A DNA stretch of 64,000 nt, from contig NC_052497.1 in assembly GCF_009730915.1 (NCBI RefSeq), forward strand, positions 1 to 64,000. Direction: 5' to 3'. The translations under genes and the position numbers were made by a program. A model generated the notes under the pieces. It did not search any database, had not been told where the DNA came from, and was given only the letters and a program-made list of their open reading frames with translations. This stretch comes from Dioscorea cayenensis subsp. rotundata. Its lineage: Eukaryota > Streptophyta > Magnoliopsida > Dioscoreales > Dioscoreaceae. Below, piece by piece: positions 6,635-56,700 of the stretch; position 1 is the first letter of the stretch, and every line of letters begins with the position of its first letter.

Positions 6635-7864
6635 TTATTATTAACTTTATAGGATTTAGGTAGAATGAATTAAATAACTAATTCATAGATTGTGTGTGTG
6701 TGTGTGATTTTTTTCTATTTAAGAATCTTTATTTCTTATAAAAATAACTTTAGTGATAAAAAACACCAAATGTGTAGAAGAAAAACAAAATATAAATAGA
6801 AGAAAAAAAATAAAAAAGAACAAGGAATCAAAAGGAGTGAGATCTTTATTAAATTAATAAACTTACCTTATCCATGTATATATAAAAGTCATGCACATGA
6901 AGTCCTACAAATACACACACACAAACAAAAACAAAATCAACCTTAAAACTCACACCAATCCATCAATCTCCCAAAGCAGTATACAAGTGAAACATAAAAC
7001 ATGGTAAACCATCCTCATATAGACTCATCAATTCTTGTGCAAATACTCATATAAACATGTTATATATATATCATATCTATATATAAACTTTATAATGTGT
7101 TGTCACATCTAAGAAAGAGAGACGAGTGATGATGATGGTGAGCAGTAAGAAAGGAACATGACTTTTCACAGGGATTCTCTCTGCACTACTAGTATGATTA
7201 CACCTTGGTTAACCCCCCAGATTATTTCTTCTGATCTTTTGACAGTGAACAGACCTTACTTTCTTAATATTAACACAAGTACACACAAACACACATATTC
7301 ATGTGTATATATATATGAGTACGTACCACTATGCTTTTTATATAACCAAGTCACTGCATGCAAATCCTACGTAACTTTGTTGTCTTAGTAAGAACATGTA
7401 CTATCTATATATATATATATATGTATATAATTAAAGCTTAATTGAATGTATTAAAATAATAAAGATTAAATACAAGCTTTATGCATATAAATAAATAAAT
7501 AAATATATATATGCATGAGAGAGTAAAGGTGAGAACATGAGAGAGTAGAGTAAACCCTAATTAGTTTTTCAGCTTGCTTGTGTGTAGAATTTAAACTTGC
7601 GTGAGAAAAGAGATAAGAGATCACAGAAAAGGCTTTATATCAACCTTTTTGTACTCATGTACACATTGAAAGCACAGATATTTGCTTTCCATTTATTGCC
7701 AAGGATTTTCACTTGCTTTTTGGTGTCTGGTTTTGTTGCTTCTCCATGTGAGGTTGGCTCATGGTTAACTTTTTCTTGGTGACAGTGAATGAAACATACA
7801 TTTGGGAATGTCAGTCAACTACCTCTCCTTCCCATCTCATCATACATTCATTTCTCTCCTCTCC
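6635..7864. other. intergenic spacer upstream of TAS3
   Basis: No gene is seen. The stretch contains (TG)n near 6693-6705 and several short (TA)n runs. It presumably carries the distal promoter of the TAS3 locus. Confidence 0.5.
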
Positions 7865-7874
7865 TATAAATTAA
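7865..7874 (+). promoter_or_regulatory. TATA box of TAS3
   Basis: TATAAATTAA follows a CT-rich stretch and lies 55 bp upstream of the short ORF. A transcript start near 7895 would fit the usual TATA spacing. The start site is inferred. Confidence 0.55.
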
Positions 7875-7919
7875 TCCACCTCCTCCATCCTTTCTCCAAC
7901 TCATTAAAGAGAAAACATT

Positions 7920-8024
7920 ATGTGTGTGCTTGGGTGGTTGTTTGAACTTGAATGGTGGTACAAAGGGAGGAGAAAGGTACATGGTTTGAGTTTTGGAGGC
8001 TGTTGTTGGTGCTATCTTTGCTGA
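7920..8024 (+). CDS. short ORF of TAS3 ending inside the 5' miR390 site
   Basis: A 34-codon ORF (begins MCVLGWLFELEWWYKG) starts about 25 nt after the likely transcript start. Its TGA (8022-8024) lies inside the 5' miR390 site. TAS3 transcripts of other plants carry a short ORF ending near the 5' miR390 site, and ribosomes are reported to stall there, which affects tasiRNA output. The peptide itself is not known to act. That this ORF is translated is inferred from position. Confidence 0.5.
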   Translation: MCVLGWLFELEWWYKGRRKVHGLSFGGCCWCYLC

Positions 8025-8028
8025 GCTT
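8008..8028 (+). promoter_or_regulatory. 5' miR390 target site of TAS3
   Basis: The 21 bases (GGTGCTATCTT then TGCTGAGCTT) pair with miR390 except for G:U pairs opposite miRNA nucleotides 11, 12 and 19 and a G-G clash opposite nucleotide 9. The weak centre suggests binding without efficient cutting, as at the 5' site in many TAS3 genes. The site lies out of 21-nt phase with the 3' cut. Confidence 0.8.
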
Positions 8029-8077
8029 CTCTCACTCTCTTTCTTTCTCTTTTTAAGTCCTCATTTTGCATGGTTTT

Positions 8078-8098
8078 TTCTTGACCTTGCAAGACTTT
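8078..8098 (+). ncRNA. tasiARF, register D6(+)
   Basis: The core TTCTTGACCTTGCAAGAC matches the conserved tasiR-ARF. The 21-nt unit falls exactly on the sixth register upstream of the predicted miR390 cut. The neighbouring registers (8057-8077 and 8099-8119) are not tasiARFs. Confidence 0.88.
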
Positions 8099-8192
8099 TT
8101 CTTCATAAGATCATATTCATGGCCGCTCTCTATCCCGTTTTGTGCTCACGTCTGTGATCTTACTCTTGTCAATCCTCCCATGTTTCTCTCTC

Positions 8193-8213
8193 TTGTCTAT
8201 CCCTCCAGAGCTT
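8193..8213 (+). promoter_or_regulatory. 3' miR390 target site of TAS3 (phase-setting cut)
   Basis: CTATCCCTCC and AGAGCTT pair with miR390. Nucleotides 8-17 of the miRNA are fully paired across the cut site. Mismatches fall at miRNA nucleotide 7 and at its last four bases. The predicted cut lies between 8203 and 8204. Confidence 0.82.
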
Positions 8214-8399
8214 TGGTTTAATTTTATTATTGCTCTTTTGTGTTATTTCAGATGTAATGCAATATTGATGTTTAATGTTGTGTATCTGTTTGCATTTTTC
8301 TAATGAGTTTGTGTTTAGTTTGGAGATGCATGCATCATTATGGAAATTATGTTTTGTTGTTTATTATCAATGAAGATTTTATTGATCATGCAAACTTCG

Positions 8400-8970
8400 T
8401 GATACAACCTTACCTCTCCAGCTGGAAGATAACCAACATGTTGAGCCGATATTAGAAGAGAACAACCACCATGAAGCATCACAGGAAGCTTCCACAGTAG
8501 AGGTGAACACCGATGAGAGGCGCGTTCAACGCATTCGTAAACCGCCAACTTGGATGCAGGATTTTGTGACCACACAAGTGGCATCAAGACGTCCATAGAT
8601 TGGGGTTGAGATATCATAGGTAATCATATCACAATAATGAGTTGTCATAGATTGGGTGATGAGATATCATCAGTAAGCATATCACAATGATGAGTTGTCA
8701 GTAACAATAATATTAGCTGGATTGATAAATTAACAGCTGGGTTACTTATTAAGATAAGTTGAGTCTATTTATATGTCATTAGGGTCCTTATGTTGGGGTA
8801 TGAAAAGTCTTGGAGTCTATCTTGTTCTTATGGAATAATATCTTTCTTTCTTTATCTTTTCTTCTTCTTCTTCTTCTCCTTGCCTCTCCTTTGACATTGG
8901 TCTTAATCGTGGAGTAAGAACCCACTCAAAGCAGGTTCCATTGGTGCGTCGCAAATCTATTGACGTATCA
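8400..8970 (+). repeat. 5' LTR
   Basis: This 571-bp copy is by eye identical to 13502-14072 and has TGATAC/GTATCA ends. It begins with a duplicate of the coding tail, because the coding region of this element runs into the 3' LTR. Confidence 0.95.
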
Positions 8971-8990
8971 CTGGTGCTTTCATTGAACCT

Positions 8991-11900
8991 ATGGCCAATC
9001 CGGAAATTCTTGAAGCTATGAAGGTGTTATCTGAGCAATTCCAGGAGCAACTGCAAACTAAGCTGGAGGAACAAGCTGCTGTCTATCATACGTCCCTGCA
9101 GAAGAGCATTGCGGCCCTAAATGGCCGTATTGAAGGAGTACGTTTCCAGTTGAGCGGATATAGTGCATCCACTAGCGAGGAGAGACCTTCGTCCTGTCAA
9201 CATCCGTCGGATTCTCTTCCTTTAAGTGCGAATGTTCAACTCCTTCCTCGCAATATGCGATTAGAGATCCCAAAATTTGATGGCACGGATCCAGAAAGTT
9301 GGGTCTTTAAAATCGAAGAGTTCTTCTATTTCCATGAGACCCCAGCATCACTCCGGCTGCGCATCGTCTCTTTTCATATGGAGGGAAAAGCCTCGGCTTG
9401 GTACCAGTGGATGAAGGGTAGTAATCTCCTTACCACTTGGCCCGACTTCCTTTCTAATGTCAGACAACGTTTTGGATCTTCGGTCTATGAGGATCATCAG
9501 GGGAATCTCTCCAAATTGTCTCAAACATCCACAGTGGCTGAGTTTCAAACTGAGTTTGAGGAATTGATGAATCTAATAACAGGAATTCCTGAGCATCTGC
9601 TCATCTCTTTTTTTATCGCTGGACTCCGGCCACACTTGCGTCGCGAGATGCTACTTCAACGGCCGACGACACTAATGGCAACTTTTTCATTGGCCAGAGC
9701 TTATGAGGCTCGGTACGAAGAAGCGCCACAGGATCAGCGCACGGTGTTTCGGGGTACCGCTCGAACAAATTCCCAAACTCCCGTCCCAGTCGCTTTCAGG
9801 ACTCAACCATCCCCTTCAAACATACCGGTGCCATCTTTACTGGGACCGCCTCCTAAAACCAGTGGAACAACTGTTGCGGCGAACCCACTTCCGATTCGCC
9901 GACTGACACCAACTGAGATACAGGAGAGACGCAACAAAGGGCTTTGTTTCAAATGTGATCAAAAGTGGACTGCAAACCATCGCTGCCGCAGCCAATGTTT
10001 ATTACTACTAAGCGATGTGGAGGACGACCCCGACACACAAACAAGTGCAGACTCTCCTCCTACACCGGAAGCTGAAGTGGTCACGGGCGACATATCAAGT
10101 ATGAATACTTTGGCAGGACAAAATAATCCAAGATCGCTGCGAATGCTGGGCATGATTTCAAGCCACTCATTTCATGTGCTGATTGATGGAGGAAGTACAC
10201 ATAACTTCATAAAGCCCTTGTTGGCAGAGAAACTGGGGTTGCATGTCAAACCAACACAACCTTTTCGGGTTTATATTGGTAACGGTGATTACTTGATTTG
10301 TTCTCTCTACTGCCCACAGATTCCTCTATGTTTGCAGGGAACTACTTTCACGATTGATGTCTTTTTGTTGGCCATTGAGGGACCAGATCTGGTTCTTGGG
10401 GTGCAATGGCTCCAAAGCTTGGGAAAAGTCTCACATGATTATAAGTTCCTTACTATGGAGTTCATGTGGGAGGGGAAGACCATACTTTTGCATGGGGACA
10501 CCAAACCGATCACCAAGGCAATCACCTACACTCAGCTTCAGGCTATGGTCAACTATGAAGTATGTGCAGGATTATATGAATTGCAACAACTCCATAGTCC
10601 TAAAGATAAGAGTGGAGAACATTCAGACTTCAAGTTATCCGAAGATCTCCATGCTGATGTGGTCGCACTTCTACAACAATACAAGGAGCTTTTCATGCCT
10701 CCCACACAGCTTCCCCCTCGCAGAATAATTGACCATAGGATATACTTGGAACCTAATACCACACCGATCAATGTCCGACCTTATCGCTATCCACACTATC
10801 AGAAGAGCGAAATGGAGAAATTGGTGCGTGAGATGCTCGCGCAAGGGGTCATCAGGCCGAGTCAGAGTCCTTTTTCTTCCCCTGTCCTACTAGTGCGTAA
10901 GAAGGATGGAACTTACCGTTTTTGCGTTGATTACAGAGCTCTCAATGCTGTAACAATCAAGGATAAGTTTCCTATTCCCACTATTGATGAACTCCTCGAT
11001 GAACTTGGAGGAGCCAAGGTCTTTACTAAACTTGATCTTCGGGCTGGATATCATCAAATCAGGATGCATGATCGGGATGTCTACAAAACAGCTTTCCGGA
11101 CTCATGATGGTCATTTCGAATTCCTGGTAATGCCTTTTGGTCTTTCAAATGCACCATCTACTTTCCAAGCTACTATGAATCGTATATTTGCTCCTTATCT
11201 CAGGAAATTTGTCATAGTATTCTTTGATGATATTTTGGTCTATAGCTCTTCTTTATCTTCTCATCTGCACCACCTTGAGCACGTGTTCCAGTGTCTGAAG
11301 ACAAATTATTTCTATATTAAAATGTCTAAGTGTTCCTTCGGCAAATCCACAATTGACTATTTGGGACACATCATGACTCCTGAGGGTGTGCGTGTTGATC
11401 CTACCAAGGTAGATGCCATGGCCAACTGGCCTACTCCTACCACACAACGCCAATTGAGAGCCTTCCTTGGGTTAACCGGATATTATAGAAGATTCATAAA
11501 GGGATATTCTTCCATTGCCGCGCCATTGACGGACTTACTGTGTAATGAAGCATTTGAGTGGACGACAACAGCAACTGATGCATTGGAGGCTTTAAAGCGC
11601 GCCATGATTACGGCACCCGTTCTCCACCTACCAGATTTCAACAAGCAATTCGTGATCGAGACTGATGCATCCAAAAGTGGAATTGGGGCTGTGCTTATGC
11701 AGGATGAACATCCAATCTCATATTTTAGCAAGAAGTTGGGTCCTCGCCTTCAATCTTCTTCAACATATATCCGAGAATTGCATGCTATCGTCGAGGCCGT
11801 ACACAAGTGGCGACAATACCTTCTGGGAAGTTTCTTTATCATTAGGACAGACCATCAAAGCCTTAAACAGCTCCTCCAACAAGTCATTCAAACTCCTGAC

Positions 11901-13700
11901 CAACAAATTTATCTTCGTAAATTATTGGGTTTCCATTTCCGAATTGATTACAAGCCAGGTTCGTCTAACCACGCCGCTGACGCTCTATCTCGCATGCACG
12001 AGGATGCAACTTATAGAACTTTGCAAATGGCCAGCCAACCCATCTCTTCATTCTTATCTACACTCAAACAAGAAAATATTAGCTTAACTGATTTGCAGCT
12101 CATGCACCAGAAACTTGCTGCCAGATCTCTCTCTCCAGCATATTCAAGCCGTGATGGTCTCCTTTTTTATAAGAACCGATATTACATCAGTCCAAATTCC
12201 AGCCTTAAACCAGCGTTGTTGTATGAATTCCATTCTACTCCACTTGCTGGACATGCCGGAGTGAAACGAACCTTGGTTCGTTTGTCTGCTCAATTTTTTT
12301 GGCCTGGGATGCGGAAGGATGTCGAAGCCTACATAGCAGCTTGTGAGAGATGTCAACAAATTAAATTCTCTACACAGCCACCTGCAGGCCTTCTCCAACC
12401 TTTGTCTATTCCGTCAACAGTATGGGAGGAACTTACTATGGACTTTATTGTTGGGTTACCAGAATCTCAGGGTTGCACAGCAATCATGGTGGTGGTAGAC
12501 CGACTGTCTAAATCGGCACACTTCGCCCCTCTTCCCACGAGGTTTACAGCTACCCAAGTGGCGGAGCTTTTTGCAGACCGAGTTGTGAAGTTACATGGGT
12601 TTCCTAAAACGATCGTATCCGATCGGGACCCCATTTTTGTTAGCCATTTCTGGAAGACATTATTTGCGCTCAGTGGTACCAAGCTCCATCATAGCACCGC
12701 ATATCATCCACAGACGGATGGACAGAGCGAGGTTGTCAATCGAGGCCTTGAGCAATACTTGCGTTCTTTTTCCGGGACTCAACCATCCAAATGGGTCAAG
12801 TTTCTTGCCTGGGCTGAGTTATGCTACAACACGAGCTACCATAGCGGCCTTAAGATGTCTCCATACCAGGCCTTGTATGGGCGACCACCACCATCATTAC
12901 CAGCTTATCACCCTGGTGATTCCAATCTTCAAGCTATTGATGCACTTTTGACTGAACGTGACAACTTAATGCGGACGTTGAAAACAAACTTATTACAAGC
13001 TCAACATCGGATGACACAAAAGGCCAACGCGCGACGACGAGAGCTAGAACTGGGAGTGGGTGATCGGGTGTTGGTCCGCCTCCAACCCTATCGTCAAGAA
13101 TCAGTAGCCAAACGTCACTCCACTAAGCTGAGCCCACGGTATTACGGGCCATTCGAAGTGCTTGAACGCATCGGGCCTGTAGCTTATCGTCTGCAGCTAC
13201 CACCGGAAAGTCGGATCCATCCAGTGTTTCATATCTCAGCTCTTCGTCCATTCAAGAGTTCTGAATTGACACAACCCTGTTCTCTTCCTCCAGTATATAG
13301 CACTCCTACACTTATTCCTCTACCCTTGGTGATCTGTGCTTCCCGTACAATCTTACAGCGTGGCAAGGCCATTCGTCAAATTCTGGTGCAGTGGCGAGGT
13401 ACTTCCCCGGAGGAGGCGACCTGGGAGAAACTTGATGATTTTTGCAAGTCTTATCCTCAGTACCACCTTGAGGACAAGGTGTTATTTCAGACGGGGGGAA
13501 ATGATACAACCTTACCTCTCCAGCTGGAAGATAACCAACATGTTGAGCCGATATTAGAAGAGAACAACCACCATGAAGCATCACAGGAAGCTTCCACAGT
13601 AGAGGTGAACACCGATGAGAGGCGCGTTCAACGCATTCGTAAACCGCCAACTTGGATGCAGGATTTTGTGACCACACAAGTGGCATCAAGACGTCCATAG
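8991..13700 (+). CDS. gag-pol polyprotein of the Reina-like chromovirus (1569 aa)
   Basis: One continuous reading frame holds all parts in the usual chromovirus order: gag with a zinc-knuckle-like region (to about residue 330), aspartic protease (near 400), reverse transcriptase (about 600-790), RNase H (about 885-1010), integrase with its zinc domain and catalytic core (about 1080-1320) and a C-terminal chromodomain (about 1440-1500). The last 66 or so residues are encoded within the 3' LTR. The element looks whole. Chromodomains of this group are thought to steer integration by reading histone marks. Confidence 0.93.
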   Translation: MANPEILEAMKVLSEQFQEQLQTKLEEQAAVYHTSLQKSIAALNGRIEGVRFQLSGYSASTSEERPSSCQHPSDSLPLSANVQLLPRNMRLEIPKFDGTDPESWVFKIEEFFYFHETPASLRLRIVSFHMEGKASAWYQWMKGSNLLTTWPDFLSNVRQRFGSSVYEDHQGNLSKLSQTSTVAEFQTEFEELMNLITGIPEHLLISFFIAGLRPHLRREMLLQRPTTLMATFSLARAYEARYEEAPQDQRTVFRGTARTNSQTPVPVAFRTQPSPSNIPVPSLLGPPPKTSGTTVAANPLPIRRLTPTEIQERRNKGLCFKCDQKWTANHRCRSQCLLLLSDVEDDPDTQTSADSPPTPEAEVVTGDISSMNTLAGQNNPRSLRMLGMISSHSFHVLIDGGSTHNFIKPLLAEKLGLHVKPTQPFRVYIGNGDYLICSLYCPQIPLCLQGTTFTIDVFLLAIEGPDLVLGVQWLQSLGKVSHDYKFLTMEFMWEGKTILLHGDTKPITKAITYTQLQAMVNYEVCAGLYELQQLHSPKDKSGEHSDFKLSEDLHADVVALLQQYKELFMPPTQLPPRRIIDHRIYLEPNTTPINVRPYRYPHYQKSEMEKLVREMLAQGVIRPSQSPFSSPVLLVRKKDGTYRFCVDYRALNAVTIKDKFPIPTIDELLDELGGAKVFTKLDLRAGYHQIRMHDRDVYKTAFRTHDGHFEFLVMPFGLSNAPSTFQATMNRIFAPYLRKFVIVFFDDILVYSSSLSSHLHHLEHVFQCLKTNYFYIKMSKCSFGKSTIDYLGHIMTPEGVRVDPTKVDAMANWPTPTTQRQLRAFLGLTGYYRRFIKGYSSIAAPLTDLLCNEAFEWTTTATDALEALKRAMITAPVLHLPDFNKQFVIETDASKSGIGAVLMQDEHPISYFSKKLGPRLQSSSTYIRELHAIVEAVHKWRQYLLGSFFIIRTDHQSLKQLLQQVIQTPDQQIYLRKLLGFHFRIDYKPGSSNHAADALSRMHEDATYRTLQMASQPISSFLSTLKQENISLTDLQLMHQKLAARSLSPAYSSRDGLLFYKNRYYISPNSSLKPALLYEFHSTPLAGHAGVKRTLVRLSAQFFWPGMRKDVEAYIAACERCQQIKFSTQPPAGLLQPLSIPSTVWEELTMDFIVGLPESQGCTAIMVVVDRLSKSAHFAPLPTRFTATQVAELFADRVVKLHGFPKTIVSDRDPIFVSHFWKTLFALSGTKLHHSTAYHPQTDGQSEVVNRGLEQYLRSFSGTQPSKWVKFLAWAELCYNTSYHSGLKMSPYQALYGRPPPSLPAYHPGDSNLQAIDALLTERDNLMRTLKTNLLQAQHRMTQKANARRRELELGVGDRVLVRLQPYRQESVAKRHSTKLSPRYYGPFEVLERIGPVAYRLQLPPESRIHPVFHISALRPFKSSELTQPCSLPPVYSTPTLIPLPLVICASRTILQRGKAIRQILVQWRGTSPEEATWEKLDDFCKSYPQYHLEDKVLFQTGGNDTTLPLQLEDNQHVEPILEENNHHEASQEASTVEVNTDERRVQRIRKPPTWMQDFVTTQVASRRP

Positions 13701-14072
13701 ATTGGGGTTGAGATATCATAGGTAATCATATCACAATAATGAGTTGTCATAGATTGGGTGATGAGATATCATCAGTAAGCATATCACAATGATGAGTTGT
13801 CAGTAACAATAATATTAGCTGGATTGATAAATTAACAGCTGGGTTACTTATTAAGATAAGTTGAGTCTATTTATATGTCATTAGGGTCCTTATGTTGGGG
13901 TATGAAAAGTCTTGGAGTCTATCTTGTTCTTATGGAATAATATCTTTCTTTCTTTATCTTTTCTTCTTCTTCTTCTTCTCCTTGCCTCTCCTTTGACATT
14001 GGTCTTAATCGTGGAGTAAGAACCCACTCAAAGCAGGTTCCATTGGTGCGTCGCAAATCTATTGACGTATCA
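13502..14072 (+). repeat. 3' LTR
   Basis: This is the second 571-bp LTR. It overlaps the end of the polyprotein frame and is followed by the CTTCG target duplicate at 14073-14077. Confidence 0.95.
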
Positions 14073-14077
14073 CTTCG

Positions 14078-16872: not shown

Positions 16873-18255
16873 ATGAGTCTTGGAAAGCCACCATTACCAT
16901 TCTTCCAATCCTTATCATCTCCACCACCACCACCACCACCACCACCACCTTTCACAAATTCCCAAAGCAACAGCATAGAAAACAAGATCAGTCCAAGCAT
17001 TCTGCTCATCACTGTAATCTTAGCAGTCATCTTCTTCATCTCTGGTTTGGTTCATCTCCTTGTTAGATACCTTCTCAGGCCTATAAATAGAGAACCAGAA
17101 GAGATTGACAATGTGACAGTCCTCCAAGGCCAACTACAGCAGCTCTTCCACCTCCATGATGCAGGAGTGGACCAGTCTTACATTGACACTCTCCCAATCT
17201 TCCTCTACAAAGCCATTATTGGCTTGAAGGATCCTTTTGATTGTGCTGTTTGTTTGTGTGAGTTTGAAGCTGATGACAAGCTAAGACTTCTCCCCAAATG
17301 TAGCCATGCTTTCCATCTTGAATGCATTGACACTTGGTTGTTGTCCCACTCTACCTGCCCTCTTTGTAGGAGTTCTCTCCTGCCTGAATTTTCCCCAAGT
17401 TGTAGTAGTCCTATGCTCCTTGTTCTTGAGTCTGCTAGTGAGAGCTCTAGAGAGCCTGATTCTGAAAGGATTGATGTTGGAGATGATGAATTGAGGACTT
17501 CACTTAGTGGTGATGTTCATGTTAATCAAAAACAAGCTGAAATTGATGCCAAGGATGAGGTTGTGACAGTGAAACTTGGAAAGTTTAGAAATGTGGAAAC
17601 TAGTGGAGTTGCTGCAATTGGTGAAGGTGAAGGTTGTAGCAATGTGGAAACCAATAGGAATTTGGATCAAAGGAGATGTTTCTCTATGGGTTCATTTGAG
17701 TATGTTATGGATGAGAGTTCATTGCTGCAAGTGTCCATTAAGTTAAGCAAGAAAAGGCCGGCAGCAATTCAGAAACCCGGTCACCGGGGAGCAATGTCCG
17801 AATGCGATTGCCATTCGAGAAGAGAAGGATTCTCCAAAGCTTTCGATCATTCATCGAGAAGTTTCGAATCAATTCAAGGCAATGCAGGTGGTGGTGTTGG
17901 CAGCAGTAGCAGTAGCAGTAGCAATAATTTGCAGAAAAAAGAGAGCTTTTCGATATCGAAAATTTGGCTGAGACAGAAAAAGAAAAGTTCTGTAGTTTCC
18001 GGTGATTTTTCGACTCGTGCATTCTCATTTAGATTGTCATTGGTTAGAGGTGTAACCGGGGACTCGAAGATGAAGAGCAATGTTTCGGAGCCTGATGAGT
18101 TGCAGAAGAGTGGAAGTAGTGAATTCGGTGTCGATGTAGAGATTGGAAGTAGTAATTCTGGTGCTGTTTTGAAGGCAGAAGAAGGTCCTTCATTTGCTAG
18201 AAGAACATTGCTATGGTTAGGAGGAAGACAGAACAAAGTAGTGAATCATGTCTGA
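16873..18255 (+). CDS. RING-H2 finger E3 ubiquitin ligase, ATL46/ATL13-like
   Basis: An intronless 460-residue ORF, as is usual for ATL genes. It has a proline run from a CCA repeat (about 17-27), one membrane span (about 38-66, SILLITVILAVIFFISGLVH), the ATL lead-in TLPIFLYKAIIGLKDPFDC and a complete RING-H2 finger (C124 x2 C ... C x H x2 H x2 C ... C x2 C, ending PLC near 165). The long, serine-rich tail holds basic stretches and is typical of the ATL13/46/47 group. ATL proteins are membrane-anchored ligases that pass ubiquitin from E2 enzymes to substrates; many act in defence or wall-related signalling. The substrate is unknown. No truncation is seen. Confidence 0.9.
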   Translation: MSLGKPPLPFFQSLSSPPPPPPPPPPFTNSQSNSIENKISPSILLITVILAVIFFISGLVHLLVRYLLRPINREPEEIDNVTVLQGQLQQLFHLHDAGVDQSYIDTLPIFLYKAIIGLKDPFDCAVCLCEFEADDKLRLLPKCSHAFHLECIDTWLLSHSTCPLCRSSLLPEFSPSCSSPMLLVLESASESSREPDSERIDVGDDELRTSLSGDVHVNQKQAEIDAKDEVVTVKLGKFRNVETSGVAAIGEGEGCSNVETNRNLDQRRCFSMGSFEYVMDESSLLQVSIKLSKKRPAAIQKPGHRGAMSECDCHSRREGFSKAFDHSSRSFESIQGNAGGGVGSSSSSSSNNLQKKESFSISKIWLRQKKKSSVVSGDFSTRAFSFRLSLVRGVTGDSKMKSNVSEPDELQKSGSSEFGVDVEIGSSNSGAVLKAEEGPSFARRTLLWLGGRQNKVVNHV

Positions 18256-35454: not shown

Positions 35455-36900
35455 ATGAAGGAAGTGAAGAAAGATCACATCTTAATATTCCCATTCATGG
35501 CACAAGGCCATACCATCCCACTCCTCCACCTTGCCACCTTCCTCTCAACCCACCACCACCTTCAAATCACAATCATCACCACCTCCGGCAACGCTCCTTT
35601 TCTCCGGCAATACCTCCCATCTTCAATCAACCTCTCCATCTTCCCATTCCCTTCTTCTCCTCTCCTCCCCATCGGCGTTGAGTCCACTGATCACCTCTCT
35701 TCTATGGACCTACACCCAATCTTTGTAACCACCATTGCTCATCTCCGACCACACTTGCACCAACTCCTCCACTCCCTCCACCTCTCCAATTCCCTCCCAC
35801 TCTGCCTCATCTCCGACTTCTTCCTCCCTTGGACTCTCGACGTCTGCCGTCTCTTCTCCGTCCCACGTCTCGTCTTTCACGGCATGTCCACCTTCTCTAT
35901 GTTCATCTGCAAATCCATCTACACCCACCTAAAGCCTTCCTCCTTCACCTCCTCCGATGAGCTCTACCATGTCCCCGGTGGTCCTCCTTCTCTTCTCCTC
36001 TCTCGCCACCAAGTCCCAGACATCTTTCTCAACTCCGGTGACCCTAATGACCCTACAACTATCATCCTCGCCGAACACAACACAAGTGACATCAACAGCT
36101 GGGGCATCATCGTCAACAGCTTCTCATTCATTGAACGTGAGTACACTAAACTCTTTGAATCATTCTTCCAGAATGGAACTCGTGCATGGCTCATCGGTCC
36201 TTTATCTCTACTTTCTTCACCGACTCTCACCGACGAGGGTGATTGTCTCCGGTGGCTAAACGACAAGGAAATGAACTCAGTGGTTTACGTAGCGTTTGGG
36301 ACGCAAGCACACTTGACGGCGGAGCAGCTAGAGGAGGTGGCAAATGGGTTGGAGGCGGCGGAGTGTGAGTATCTATGGGTGGTGAGAGATGCTTCATGGC
36401 GGCCGCCGGAGAGGATCACTACCGGAGAAAGAGGAAAGATTGTCCGGTGGGCACCGCAACGTGAGGTGCTACAGCATGAAGCAGTGGGAGGGTTTGTGAG
36501 TCACTGTGGATGGAACTCAGTGTTAGAGAGCATGGTCGCCGGCGTGCCGGTGCTGACGTGGCCGATGATTGCTGAGCAGGCAATCAATGAGATGATGATT
36601 GTTGATGAGTTTGGAGCTGGTTTGAGGTTGAGGAAAGTGGGTGCAGATGGGGTAGTGAAGAAGGAGGAGATAAAGAATGGAGTTAGAGAGTTAATGGTGG
36701 GAGAGAAAGGGAAGAGAGTGAGGAAGAAGATGGAGGAGCTTGGAAGGATGGCAATGGAGGCAGTTGAAGATGGAGGGAGTTCTCATAAGAGTTTGAGTGA
36801 ACTGATTGAAGAGCTCCAGAGATGCAGGAACAGAGAAGATGATGGTTTGGAACTGGAGTCTCTGCATGAGAATCATCAGGAATGTATCAAAATGTCTTGA
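35455..36900 (+). CDS. UDP-glycosyltransferase, UGT90A-like
   Basis: An intronless 481-residue ORF, full length for a plant family-1 UGT. His19 in MAQGHTIPLL is the catalytic base; the Asp in LISDFF is its likely partner. The 44-residue plant UGT signature runs about 332-375 (WAPQREVLQH ... HCGWNSVLES ... MIAEQ) and ends in Gln, which favours UDP-glucose as donor. The FPFMAQGHTIPLLHLA opening resembles UGT90A proteins. The acceptor is unknown; flavonoids or other phenolics are possible. It is the 3' member of a tandem pair with the broken copy 2 kb upstream. The start was chosen by match to the family. An upstream out-of-frame ATG at 35409 might lower translation. Confidence 0.92.
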   Translation: MKEVKKDHILIFPFMAQGHTIPLLHLATFLSTHHHLQITIITTSGNAPFLRQYLPSSINLSIFPFPSSPLLPIGVESTDHLSSMDLHPIFVTTIAHLRPHLHQLLHSLHLSNSLPLCLISDFFLPWTLDVCRLFSVPRLVFHGMSTFSMFICKSIYTHLKPSSFTSSDELYHVPGGPPSLLLSRHQVPDIFLNSGDPNDPTTIILAEHNTSDINSWGIIVNSFSFIEREYTKLFESFFQNGTRAWLIGPLSLLSSPTLTDEGDCLRWLNDKEMNSVVYVAFGTQAHLTAEQLEEVANGLEAAECEYLWVVRDASWRPPERITTGERGKIVRWAPQREVLQHEAVGGFVSHCGWNSVLESMVAGVPVLTWPMIAEQAINEMMIVDEFGAGLRLRKVGADGVVKKEEIKNGVRELMVGEKGKRVRKKMEELGRMAMEAVEDGGSSHKSLSELIEELQRCRNREDDGLELESLHENHQECIKMS

Positions 36901-53707: not shown

Positions 53708-56700
53708 ATGGGCGGATCCCATAGCCGTGAGGGTCTCAGCCTATCGGATTCCGAACCCGAATCGATGAATATCAAGAAACAGAAGAAGAAGAAGGAGAGA
53801 AACAGCAATCGGATCTTCATCTCCGAGGATCCACATCCAAAACCCGAACTCCGATATCTGTGGCGGAGGTTGACGCCAAGCTTCAATCCCTGAAGCTCAA
53901 GTACTCGCCCAAGTCTCCAAACCCTAGTCTTGGCTCTAATTCCCCCAACGCCGCCAAGCTCTACCTGCACATCGGTGGCAGCTTGCCGTCGGCGAAGTGG
54001 ATCATATCCGAGAAGCTTACCTTCTTCTCCTTCTCCAAGCCGGATTACTCTGATGACGATGATTCACCGACGTCTTCGGCGTCGGTGTCCGCATGGGTTT
54101 TGGCTGTGGGAACTAAGATTAAGGCTCGCGTTGGTCCTGAGCTCCAGCTCAAGCCTTTCCCCGCGCAGCGGCGGGTTGATTTCGTCGCCGATGGCGTATG
54201 GGCGCTTAAATTCTTCTCCGTTGGGTCGTATCATGGATTCTTGAGTGAGTACCAGAAGTGCCTCTTTGAGAATACCTACAATCTTGAAGCGAATGATGCG
54301 AACAAGGTTAGGGTTTTTGGGAATGATTTCTTGGGCTGGGCCAAACCGGAGGTGGCGGACGATGCCATCTGGGAGGACGCCGAGGAAAGCTTCGAGAAGA
54401 GCCCCCGGGCAACGGTGGCTAGAGGACATGACTTGCTGGAGGAGTTTGAGGAGGAGGCTGGAAACGATGGAGGGATCCAAAGCCTTGCGCTTGGGGCATT
54501 GGAAAATAGCTTCTTGGTTAGTGATTCAGGGGTTCAGGTTTTGAAGAATTTCAGCCATGGAGTTCATGGGAAGGGTGTGTCAGTGAAGTTATCGAGTGGA
54601 AACAAAGGTGTTCAATATGAAACCCCAAAGAAGGCAGTGCTTATGAGGGGAGAGACCAATATGCTCTTGATGAGCCCTGCTACGGCAGGGAAGCCGCATT
54701 CCACTGGCGTTCGCCAGCTTGATATTGAGACTGGGACGGTTGTCACTGAATGGAAGTTTGAGAAGGATGGAACTGACATCACAATGAGAGATATCACTAA
54801 TGATAGCAAGGGTGCACAGTTGGATCCTTCGGAGTCTACCTTCCTAGGGTTGGATGACAACCGGCTCTGCCGTTGGGATATGCGGGACAGAGGAGGTATC
54901 GTGCAGAATCTTGCAAATTCAATGGAATCGCCGGTTTTGCAGTGGACACAGGGGCATCAGTTCTCCCGGGGGACTAACTTTCAGTGTTTCGCCTCAACTG
55001 GTGATGGTTCGATAGTGGTTGGTTCTCTTGATGGAAAAATCAGGTTGTATTCAAAAAGCTCAATGAGGATGGCAAAGACTGCTTTTCCGGGACTCGGTTC
55101 TCCAATCACTCATGTGGATGTTACTTACGATGGAAGGTGGATTTTGGGCACCACGGATACTTACTTGATACTTATATCTACAATCTTCAAGGATAAAGAT
55201 GGAAAGGAGAAGACTGGTTTTAGTGGAAGGATGGGCAATAGGATTGCAGCACCAAGGTTGTTGAAGCTCACTCCATTGGATGCACATTTGGCTGGCAAAA
55301 ACAAGATCCAAAAGGGTCAGTTTTCATGGGTAAGTGTTTTAAACTTCTTTTAATCAGCATGAATGATTGAATTAGCTTCATAATGCTTGGTATTTGTTCC
55401 TAATTACACTAGATGAGTAAACCTGTCATTTTTTAACTCTGTTTAGGCACCAAGACCTTTTTTAGAACCATAGTCAAGTGTGGTCTTCATTTAACTTGTT
55501 TTGTTAGGGGTCATTTCATTATATCAGCAACATATTGGGATCTTTCATTGAAGTTAAGTGATTCTTAGCTGGCGGTAATTGCATTTTACTTTAGGTTCCA
55601 TAGGTTAACTGCTTGATCTTAATTCCATGGTTTCAATTGATTATTTTGATTTTTTTGTTATTTTTTTAAGTTTGTAGAATATTCATGTTGTCCATCTTAT
55701 CTATCCTTTGAGTACTTTTGGCACGTGTATAATGCCTCCTGTCGGGTTTTGTGTGCATTCTATTAATGCCACTCAAAACAAGTCATCAATTGGTCACACT
55801 TTGTTTTTGGTCTTCGCAAAAAAAAAGTTGTTCTACCTATGCAGTAAAACCTTGATTTTCTGGAGTAGTATTTTGATTTTTATGATGACATGAATGAATA
55901 ATTATTGCTACAAGATGTGTTATTTATTACATGAACATAGTAGGATGTACCTTCTGATGTCCCTGATATAACTGGCAATTGGCACAAATTGGGAACTTTT
56001 GAAACTCCTAAAGCTTAAAAACAAGAACCATCAGGAGCATCTTTGTCAAGTTTTAGATTAAATTGTTGATACAACTAACTTATTTTCTCCTGTTTTGCGC
56101 CATATTTGGCTTTTTCTTGGCAATATTTATTTTAATGGAGCTTTACTTCTTACTATCTCAGATCTTCATATCATTTCACATCATTCAGTCTTTTGTTTGA
56201 ATCTTTGTTGTTTTTGCATCTGTCTTTGGTGGATTTAGTTTCCATTTTGAACATAGTGAAATGTTGTTTCTTCCCGCTTTTGTGAATCCAAGTATATTGG
56301 CCTTGGTGAATGTTCAGTATTTATTTATATCTTACCACTAGTTCTCTTTCTCCTCTTGTTTCTGTCCTCATGATAAGTGGTTTCCATTCTTTAGGGACCA
56401 ATTGTTGTATGGCTAGTGATTCAAAAATTTCAATTTAGTATAACCTTTGCTTAATAATCTAAATACCTTTAATGATGCTGATGGTGTCTAGAGCACCTTG
56501 TTGAGTACCTGTCTACTTTTTTGTCTTGTAGAGGTCAAGTATTTTATGCTTGGCTGGGAATCCATGCTTCTTGAGATCCTGTTCTTTATTTATTCTCTCA
56601 TATGCGAAGTTGCATTCACAATCAGATGCTAAGCTTGGGCATTCAATTTCTTGAAAGGTGGGTAGCCTAATTGGGCTTGGGGTTAAAATTTGGGTGGTGT

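Follow-up and report, generated by a model that had tools for sequence, protein, structure and literature searches.

Small RNAs of the miR390–TAS3–ARF pathway tune the auxin response. The apple TAS3-2 family was reported to be missing in Arabidopsis and conserved in many dicots (PMC3446319). A single tasiARF is also located between miR390 sites 190 nt apart in TAS3c of cassava and castor bean (PMC4124141), and the 5′ site was reported to be cut in watermelon TAS3b (PMC5954288) and cassava TAS3c (PMC4124141). The locus analysed here resembled cassava TAS3c (PMC4124141), the one-tasiARF subfamily (PMC3835848) and a pair of loci in tea that each have one tasiARF (PMC10673657). Moreover, it shared several features with apple MdTAS3-2 (PMC3446319). 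The two miR390 sites were 185 bases apart from start to start, compared with about 190 bases in apple, and a single tasiARF lay between them. Base 10 was paired at the 5′ site, the 3′ site was the predicted phase setter, and two paralogs were present in the genome.

The window, i.e., the whole stretch of 64,000 bases that was analysed, is the start of a 121,368-base scaffold (C27) in a genome of 584 Mb. A sequence-only reading of the window had proposed a TAS3 locus at 7895..8399. This identity was upheld because two miR390 sites, a tasiARF in register, a MIR390 gene and ARF target sites were all found, and because these parts recur in a collinear paralog. Thus, the locus very probably belongs to the one-tasiARF (TAS3-2/TAS3-short) class of TAS3 genes, and it adds a further member to an already published class. 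The parts of the locus are given below.

7680..7854, + strand: probable promoter block, upstream, kept in the collinear C8 paralog (blastn, 70% identity, 198 aligned columns)
7864..7873, + strand: putative TATA-like box, CTATAAATTA, read by eye
7920..8024, + strand: short upstream ORF of 34 codons, TGA inside the 5′ miR390 site, translation putative
8008..8028, + strand: 5′ miR390 site, scored against miR390
8078..8098, + strand: tasiARF, D6(+), from scoring against the tasiARF reference and the register count
8120..8140, + strand: D4(+) siRNA position, kept in C8 (18/21), candidate AHL-type target match
8162..8182, + strand: D2(+) siRNA position, kept in C8 (17/21)
8193..8213, + strand: 3′ miR390 site, predicted cut 8203|8204
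8395..8399, + strand: 5-bp target-site duplication CTTCG, second copy at 14073-14077
8400..14072, + strand: full-length Ty3/gypsy LTR retrotransposon, LTRs 8400-8970 and 13502-14072, polyprotein ORF 8991-13700

The proposed start at 7895 lies about 25-30 bases 3′ of the TATA-like box. The proposed end at 8399 was the insertion edge of the retrotransposon and not the end of the gene. The retrotransposon that forms this 3′ edge and the conservation of D4(+) were both absent from the sequence-only reading.

Every position of the window was scored against miR390 on both strands. The exact mature sequence of the miR390 query was later located in the same genome. The top two matches were at 8008-8028 (penalty 4.5) and 8193-8213 (penalty 6), and no other place scored better than 9.5 on the + strand or 8.0 on the − strand. 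The 5′ site had a mismatch at miRNA base 9 and G:U pairs at bases 11, 12 and 19, with base 10 paired. The 3′ site was mismatched at miRNA bases 7 and 18-21. The base-7 mismatch, whose position was common to the loci on C27, C8 and C12, was the feature of the 3′ site most against efficient cutting, and it could weaken the cutting. The best tasiARF match in the window was located at 8078-8098 and had four mismatches, at bases 13 and 19-21, to a reference of the two-tasiARF type, whereas the next best match had six. Both sites and the tasiARF core were therefore the ones that had been named from the letters.

The cut was predicted at 8203|8204, in agreement with the earlier reading, because bases 10 and 11 of miR390 pair with 8204 and 8203. 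The distance from 8098 to 8203 was 105 bases, or 5 x 21, and the tasiARF was exactly D6(+), the sixth register, as had been stated. The 5′ site was rejected as the phase setter, with a distance of 59 bases between 8019 and 8078, which is no multiple of 21. The tasiARF was out of register with the 5′ cut; hence, the 3′ site was preferred, and the phase at this locus would most likely be set by it. The argument that six registers align to the base, which was held to be very unlikely by chance, was overstated. The register has the weight of a single 1-in-21 coincidence and is weaker evidence than was held. By the same geometry, it was exact at the C27 and C8 loci and one base off at the other three of the five TAS3 loci, namely that on C12 and both on C7.

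Five loci in the genome had both miR390 sites and a tasiARF, two of them on C7 and one each on C8, C12 and C27. Each of the two C7 loci had two tandem tasiARFs, and the others had one each. The 18-base tasiARF core was found with at most one mismatch at 12 places and at none in the control. Seven of these places were in the five TAS3 loci and four were in three ARF genes, and the remaining one, on C2, was unexplained. This tasiARF-like 18-mer (C2:5112702-5112719, one mismatch) lay in no recognised TAS3 or ARF gene. The genome pattern for the 3′ site, which was composed to fit the five loci, matched at five places, all in the five TAS3 loci, against one in the control. The search for the 5′ site gave nine places against two in the control: five were the TAS3 loci, one was a MIR390 hairpin, and three, on C3, C5 and C15, had one mismatch. 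Rfam gave no match in the window at the gathering score. The two TAS3-long copies, at 592 kb and 940 kb of C7, were 348 kb apart and 92% identical over about 0.8 kb, and each stretch examined contained 1000 N. The pair reflects either a duplication of recent date or an artefact of the assembly.

The surroundings of the locus were collinear with those of its C8 paralog. The matches kept their order, with pieces at 4.8-6.0 kb followed by the block at 7680-7854, then the TAS3 core and finally a RING-finger ORF (16.9-17.7 kb). ORFs of the window at 16873-18255, 35455-36900 and 53860-55353 matched the RING-H2 finger, UDP-glycosyltransferase and VID27 families, respectively. The functional blocks were identical or nearly so between C27 and C8, with 21/21 for the 5′ site, 21/21 for the D6 tasiARF and 19/21 for the 3′ site. 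The values for the remaining parts were 16/51 for the 5′ spacer, 13/21 for D5, 18/21 for D4, 7/21 for D3 and 17/21 for D2. Apart from the two further conserved registers, these values are what a functional TAS3 gene would be expected to show.

The 34-codon ORF ends inside the 5′ miR390 site, in agreement with Arabidopsis TAS RNAs, whose short ORFs with ribosome coverage were reported to stop at the miRNA site (PMC5207768). An ORF of the C8 paralog stopped at the same base. At the other three TAS3 loci, an ORF ended between -9 and +13 of the 5′ site, under an ORF filter that was chosen after the fact. A meaningful link between the end of the upstream ORF and the site is thus suggestive only.

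A MIR390 hairpin on C18, the one found and a lower bound on the number of such loci, scored above the Rfam cut-off, had a folding energy of -52.8 kcal/mol and contained the full mature sequence exactly. ARF genes of the same genome, with which a comparison of the tasiARF had been suggested, showed near-perfect complementarity. The C27 tasiARF paired with two identical sites in one ARF gene on C4 (20 pairs and one G:U), and its departures from the ARF genes on C5 and C19 were all G:U. Base 13 of the one-tasiARF variants was paired with the ARF sites, and the C7 tasiARFs had G:U there. The ARF ancillary domain was matched over the cut-off for the C5 gene (E 1.4e-9) and just under it for the C4 gene (1.4e-5). 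An AUX/IAA domain match occurred in the C5 and C19 genes, and the C19 gene matched the ARF1 structure. The ARF identity of the C4, C5 and C19 genes rests on exon pieces. Pfam gave no hit for two of these pieces, and the B3 domain was matched weakly in two cases. The C4 gene with two sites presumably corresponds to ARF3, and the C5 and C19 genes presumably correspond to ARF2/ARF4.

According to the known pathway, the locus would act as follows. Transcription would start near 7895, and miR390 in AGO7 would bind both sites and cut the transcript at 8203|8204. The upstream fragment would be copied by SGS3/RDR6 and diced by DCL4 in 21-base steps from the cut. The D6(+) tasiARF would then cleave the ARF mRNAs and thereby limit them.

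The conservation of D4 and D2 in the C8 paralog was left unexplained by the plain tasiARF story. The locus may be a TAS3 gene with dual output, in which the D6(+) tasiARF is accompanied by a D4(+) siRNA that would silence intron-bearing AHL-type (AT-hook) genes; this is considered rather unlikely. The D4 register was kept between C27 and C8 at 18/21 positions, against a local background of 36/93, and the three differences were all T/C. A binomial estimate on this background gave p = 1.3e-5 per comparison window and about 0.002 over 180 such windows, for a comparison within one species. However, the D4 block was absent by eye from the C12 and C7 loci.

Targets of D4(+) were sought with a 20-base pattern that covered the C27 and C8 variants and allowed G:U, together with a reversed control. 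The pattern occurred at seven places in the whole genome: two TAS3 loci, four genes (C1:1582564, C4:3032763, C10:228628 and C14:20850174) and C5:31578392, which was not recognisably an AHL gene. The control gave three places, though, and about four were expected with uniform bases. The four gene sites were in mRNA sense within the second AT-hook (KRxRGRP), and each was followed on its own strand by a PCC-domain match at a distance of 1.4-5 kb. We took the four genes to be AHL-type from the AT-hook and the PCC domain. Two of the four PCC stretches read across stops, which are probably introns. The four genes are related and do not count as four independent hits. Furthermore, the G:U-tolerant search was chosen after AT-hook genes had been noticed among the hits of a mismatch search. 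With up to three mismatches, that search found 22 places and its control 43; with up to two mismatches, three of the five places outside TAS3 were AT-hook coding sequence on the opposite strand.

The target pattern sat in the D4 register. Bases 1-20 of the C8 D4(+) paired with all four genes with departures that were all G:U, but base 21 was mismatched with all four. The same held for bases 1-20 of the C27 D4(+) with the C4 and C1 genes, whereas base 15 was mismatched with the C10 and C14 genes. The C27 D4(+) had penalties of 2.0-3.0 against the AHL-type sites and 0.82-0.96 of the perfect duplex energy. Two of eight comparison loci, which were selected by similarity to D4 and are not neutral, scored as well as the AHL genes, and a D4 start at 8119 scored equally for the C4 gene.

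The codons of the motif were also compared. Silent codons of the C10 gene agreed with those of the C4, C14 and C1 genes in 15/21 cases at the second AT-hook and in 8/30 at the first (p 0.002 by Fisher's test, although the comparisons lack independence; p 0.036 for the best single pair). With uniform codon choice, only 8/41,472 or 8/27,648 spellings of the motif would fit the D4 pattern. On the other hand, a gene on C2 that has no site agreed at the first AT-hook with the C4, C14 and C1 genes in 8/10, 6/10 and 7/10 codons, respectively, and at the second AT-hook in 2/7 codons with each of them. The agreement at the first hook means that silent codon agreement is not special to the site, and the codon argument is weakened by it.

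The search for D2(+) targets gave one place outside TAS3 (C4:207-225) against three in the control, and D2(+) targets were rejected because the matches were below the control.

Literature searches with the D4 and D2 strings matched only unrelated titles. No TAS3 siRNA against AHL genes appeared in the titles or abstract starts among the matches listed, and such a report may exist. GIANT KILLER is, as we assume, another AHL type. This AT-hook protein was reported to be a repressor of ETT/ARF3 in Arabidopsis (PMC2774341). If the D4(+) reading were true, ARF genes and AHL chromatin factors would both be under the control of a single miR390-triggered transcript, and the miR390-TAS3 module would gain, in this lineage, a second target family that is conserved. 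The broader proposal, that the TAS3-short genes of the lineage carry D4(+) as a second conserved trans-acting siRNA silencing AHL-type AT-hook genes, is likewise considered rather unlikely.

The preferred reading, a one-tasiARF TAS3 gene, was also weighed against the insertion next to it. The Ty3/gypsy element at 8400-14072 has the same orientation as the TAS3 locus and starts 186 bases after the 3′ miR390 site. Its polyprotein ORF (8991-13700) matched gag, protease, RT, RNase H and integrase models. The two LTRs were identical over 571 bases, and the upper bound of their divergence was about 0.5%. The element is therefore young. The insertion spared both the siRNA region and the conserved upstream block, and the retrotransposon could disturb the end of the TAS3 transcript. 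The locus might be a decayed or silenced TAS3 relic whose parts are still readable while the gene is off, perhaps through the retrotransposon. The nearby element with identical LTRs, the base-7 mismatch in the 3′ site and the presence of a similar locus on C8 are in line with this explanation. However, the functional blocks were identical or nearly identical to those of C8 while the spacers had diverged, and neither the region between the sites nor the upstream block was hit by the insertion. A relic is thus regarded as very unlikely.

A null model was built from 300 first-order Markov resamplings of the window, which gave 38.4 Mb over both strands. It contained 11 single miR390-like sites with a penalty of at most 6, the best of them at 4.5. 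No stretch of these 38.4 Mb matched the 18-base tasiARF core with fewer than two mismatches. A chance assembly of the motifs in a pyrimidine-rich non-coding stretch has a negligible probability: comparable single sites do arise in resampled sequence, but here an intact 18-base core is enclosed by two sites, all within 206 bases of one strand, and the collinear C8 paralog, which keeps the sites and the tasiARF, speaks strongly against it.

As a TAS3-short gene, the locus is ordinary but useful, being a further copy in a pathway known in leaf and root development. Such TAS3 genes can be overlooked by ORF-based annotation. The literature search found no publication of the exact tasiARF variant of the window. 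The locus differs from apple MdTAS3-2 (PMC3446319) in that it is known from DNA alone, and the conservation of D4 and D2 and the AHL match are without mention in the TAS3-2 section of that report. In TAS3c of cassava and castor bean (PMC4124141), both sites are reported to be cut and the registers are counted from the 5′ site, whereas the tasiARF of the window fits the 3′ cut only. The TAS3-long class, represented here by the two C7 loci, likewise has two miR390 sites and tasiARF sequence. Membership of the window locus in that class was rejected, since two tandem tasiARFs are required and one is present. The C7 loci differ from the window locus in their two tandem tasiARFs, which have T at base 13, and in other central mismatches of the 5′ site.
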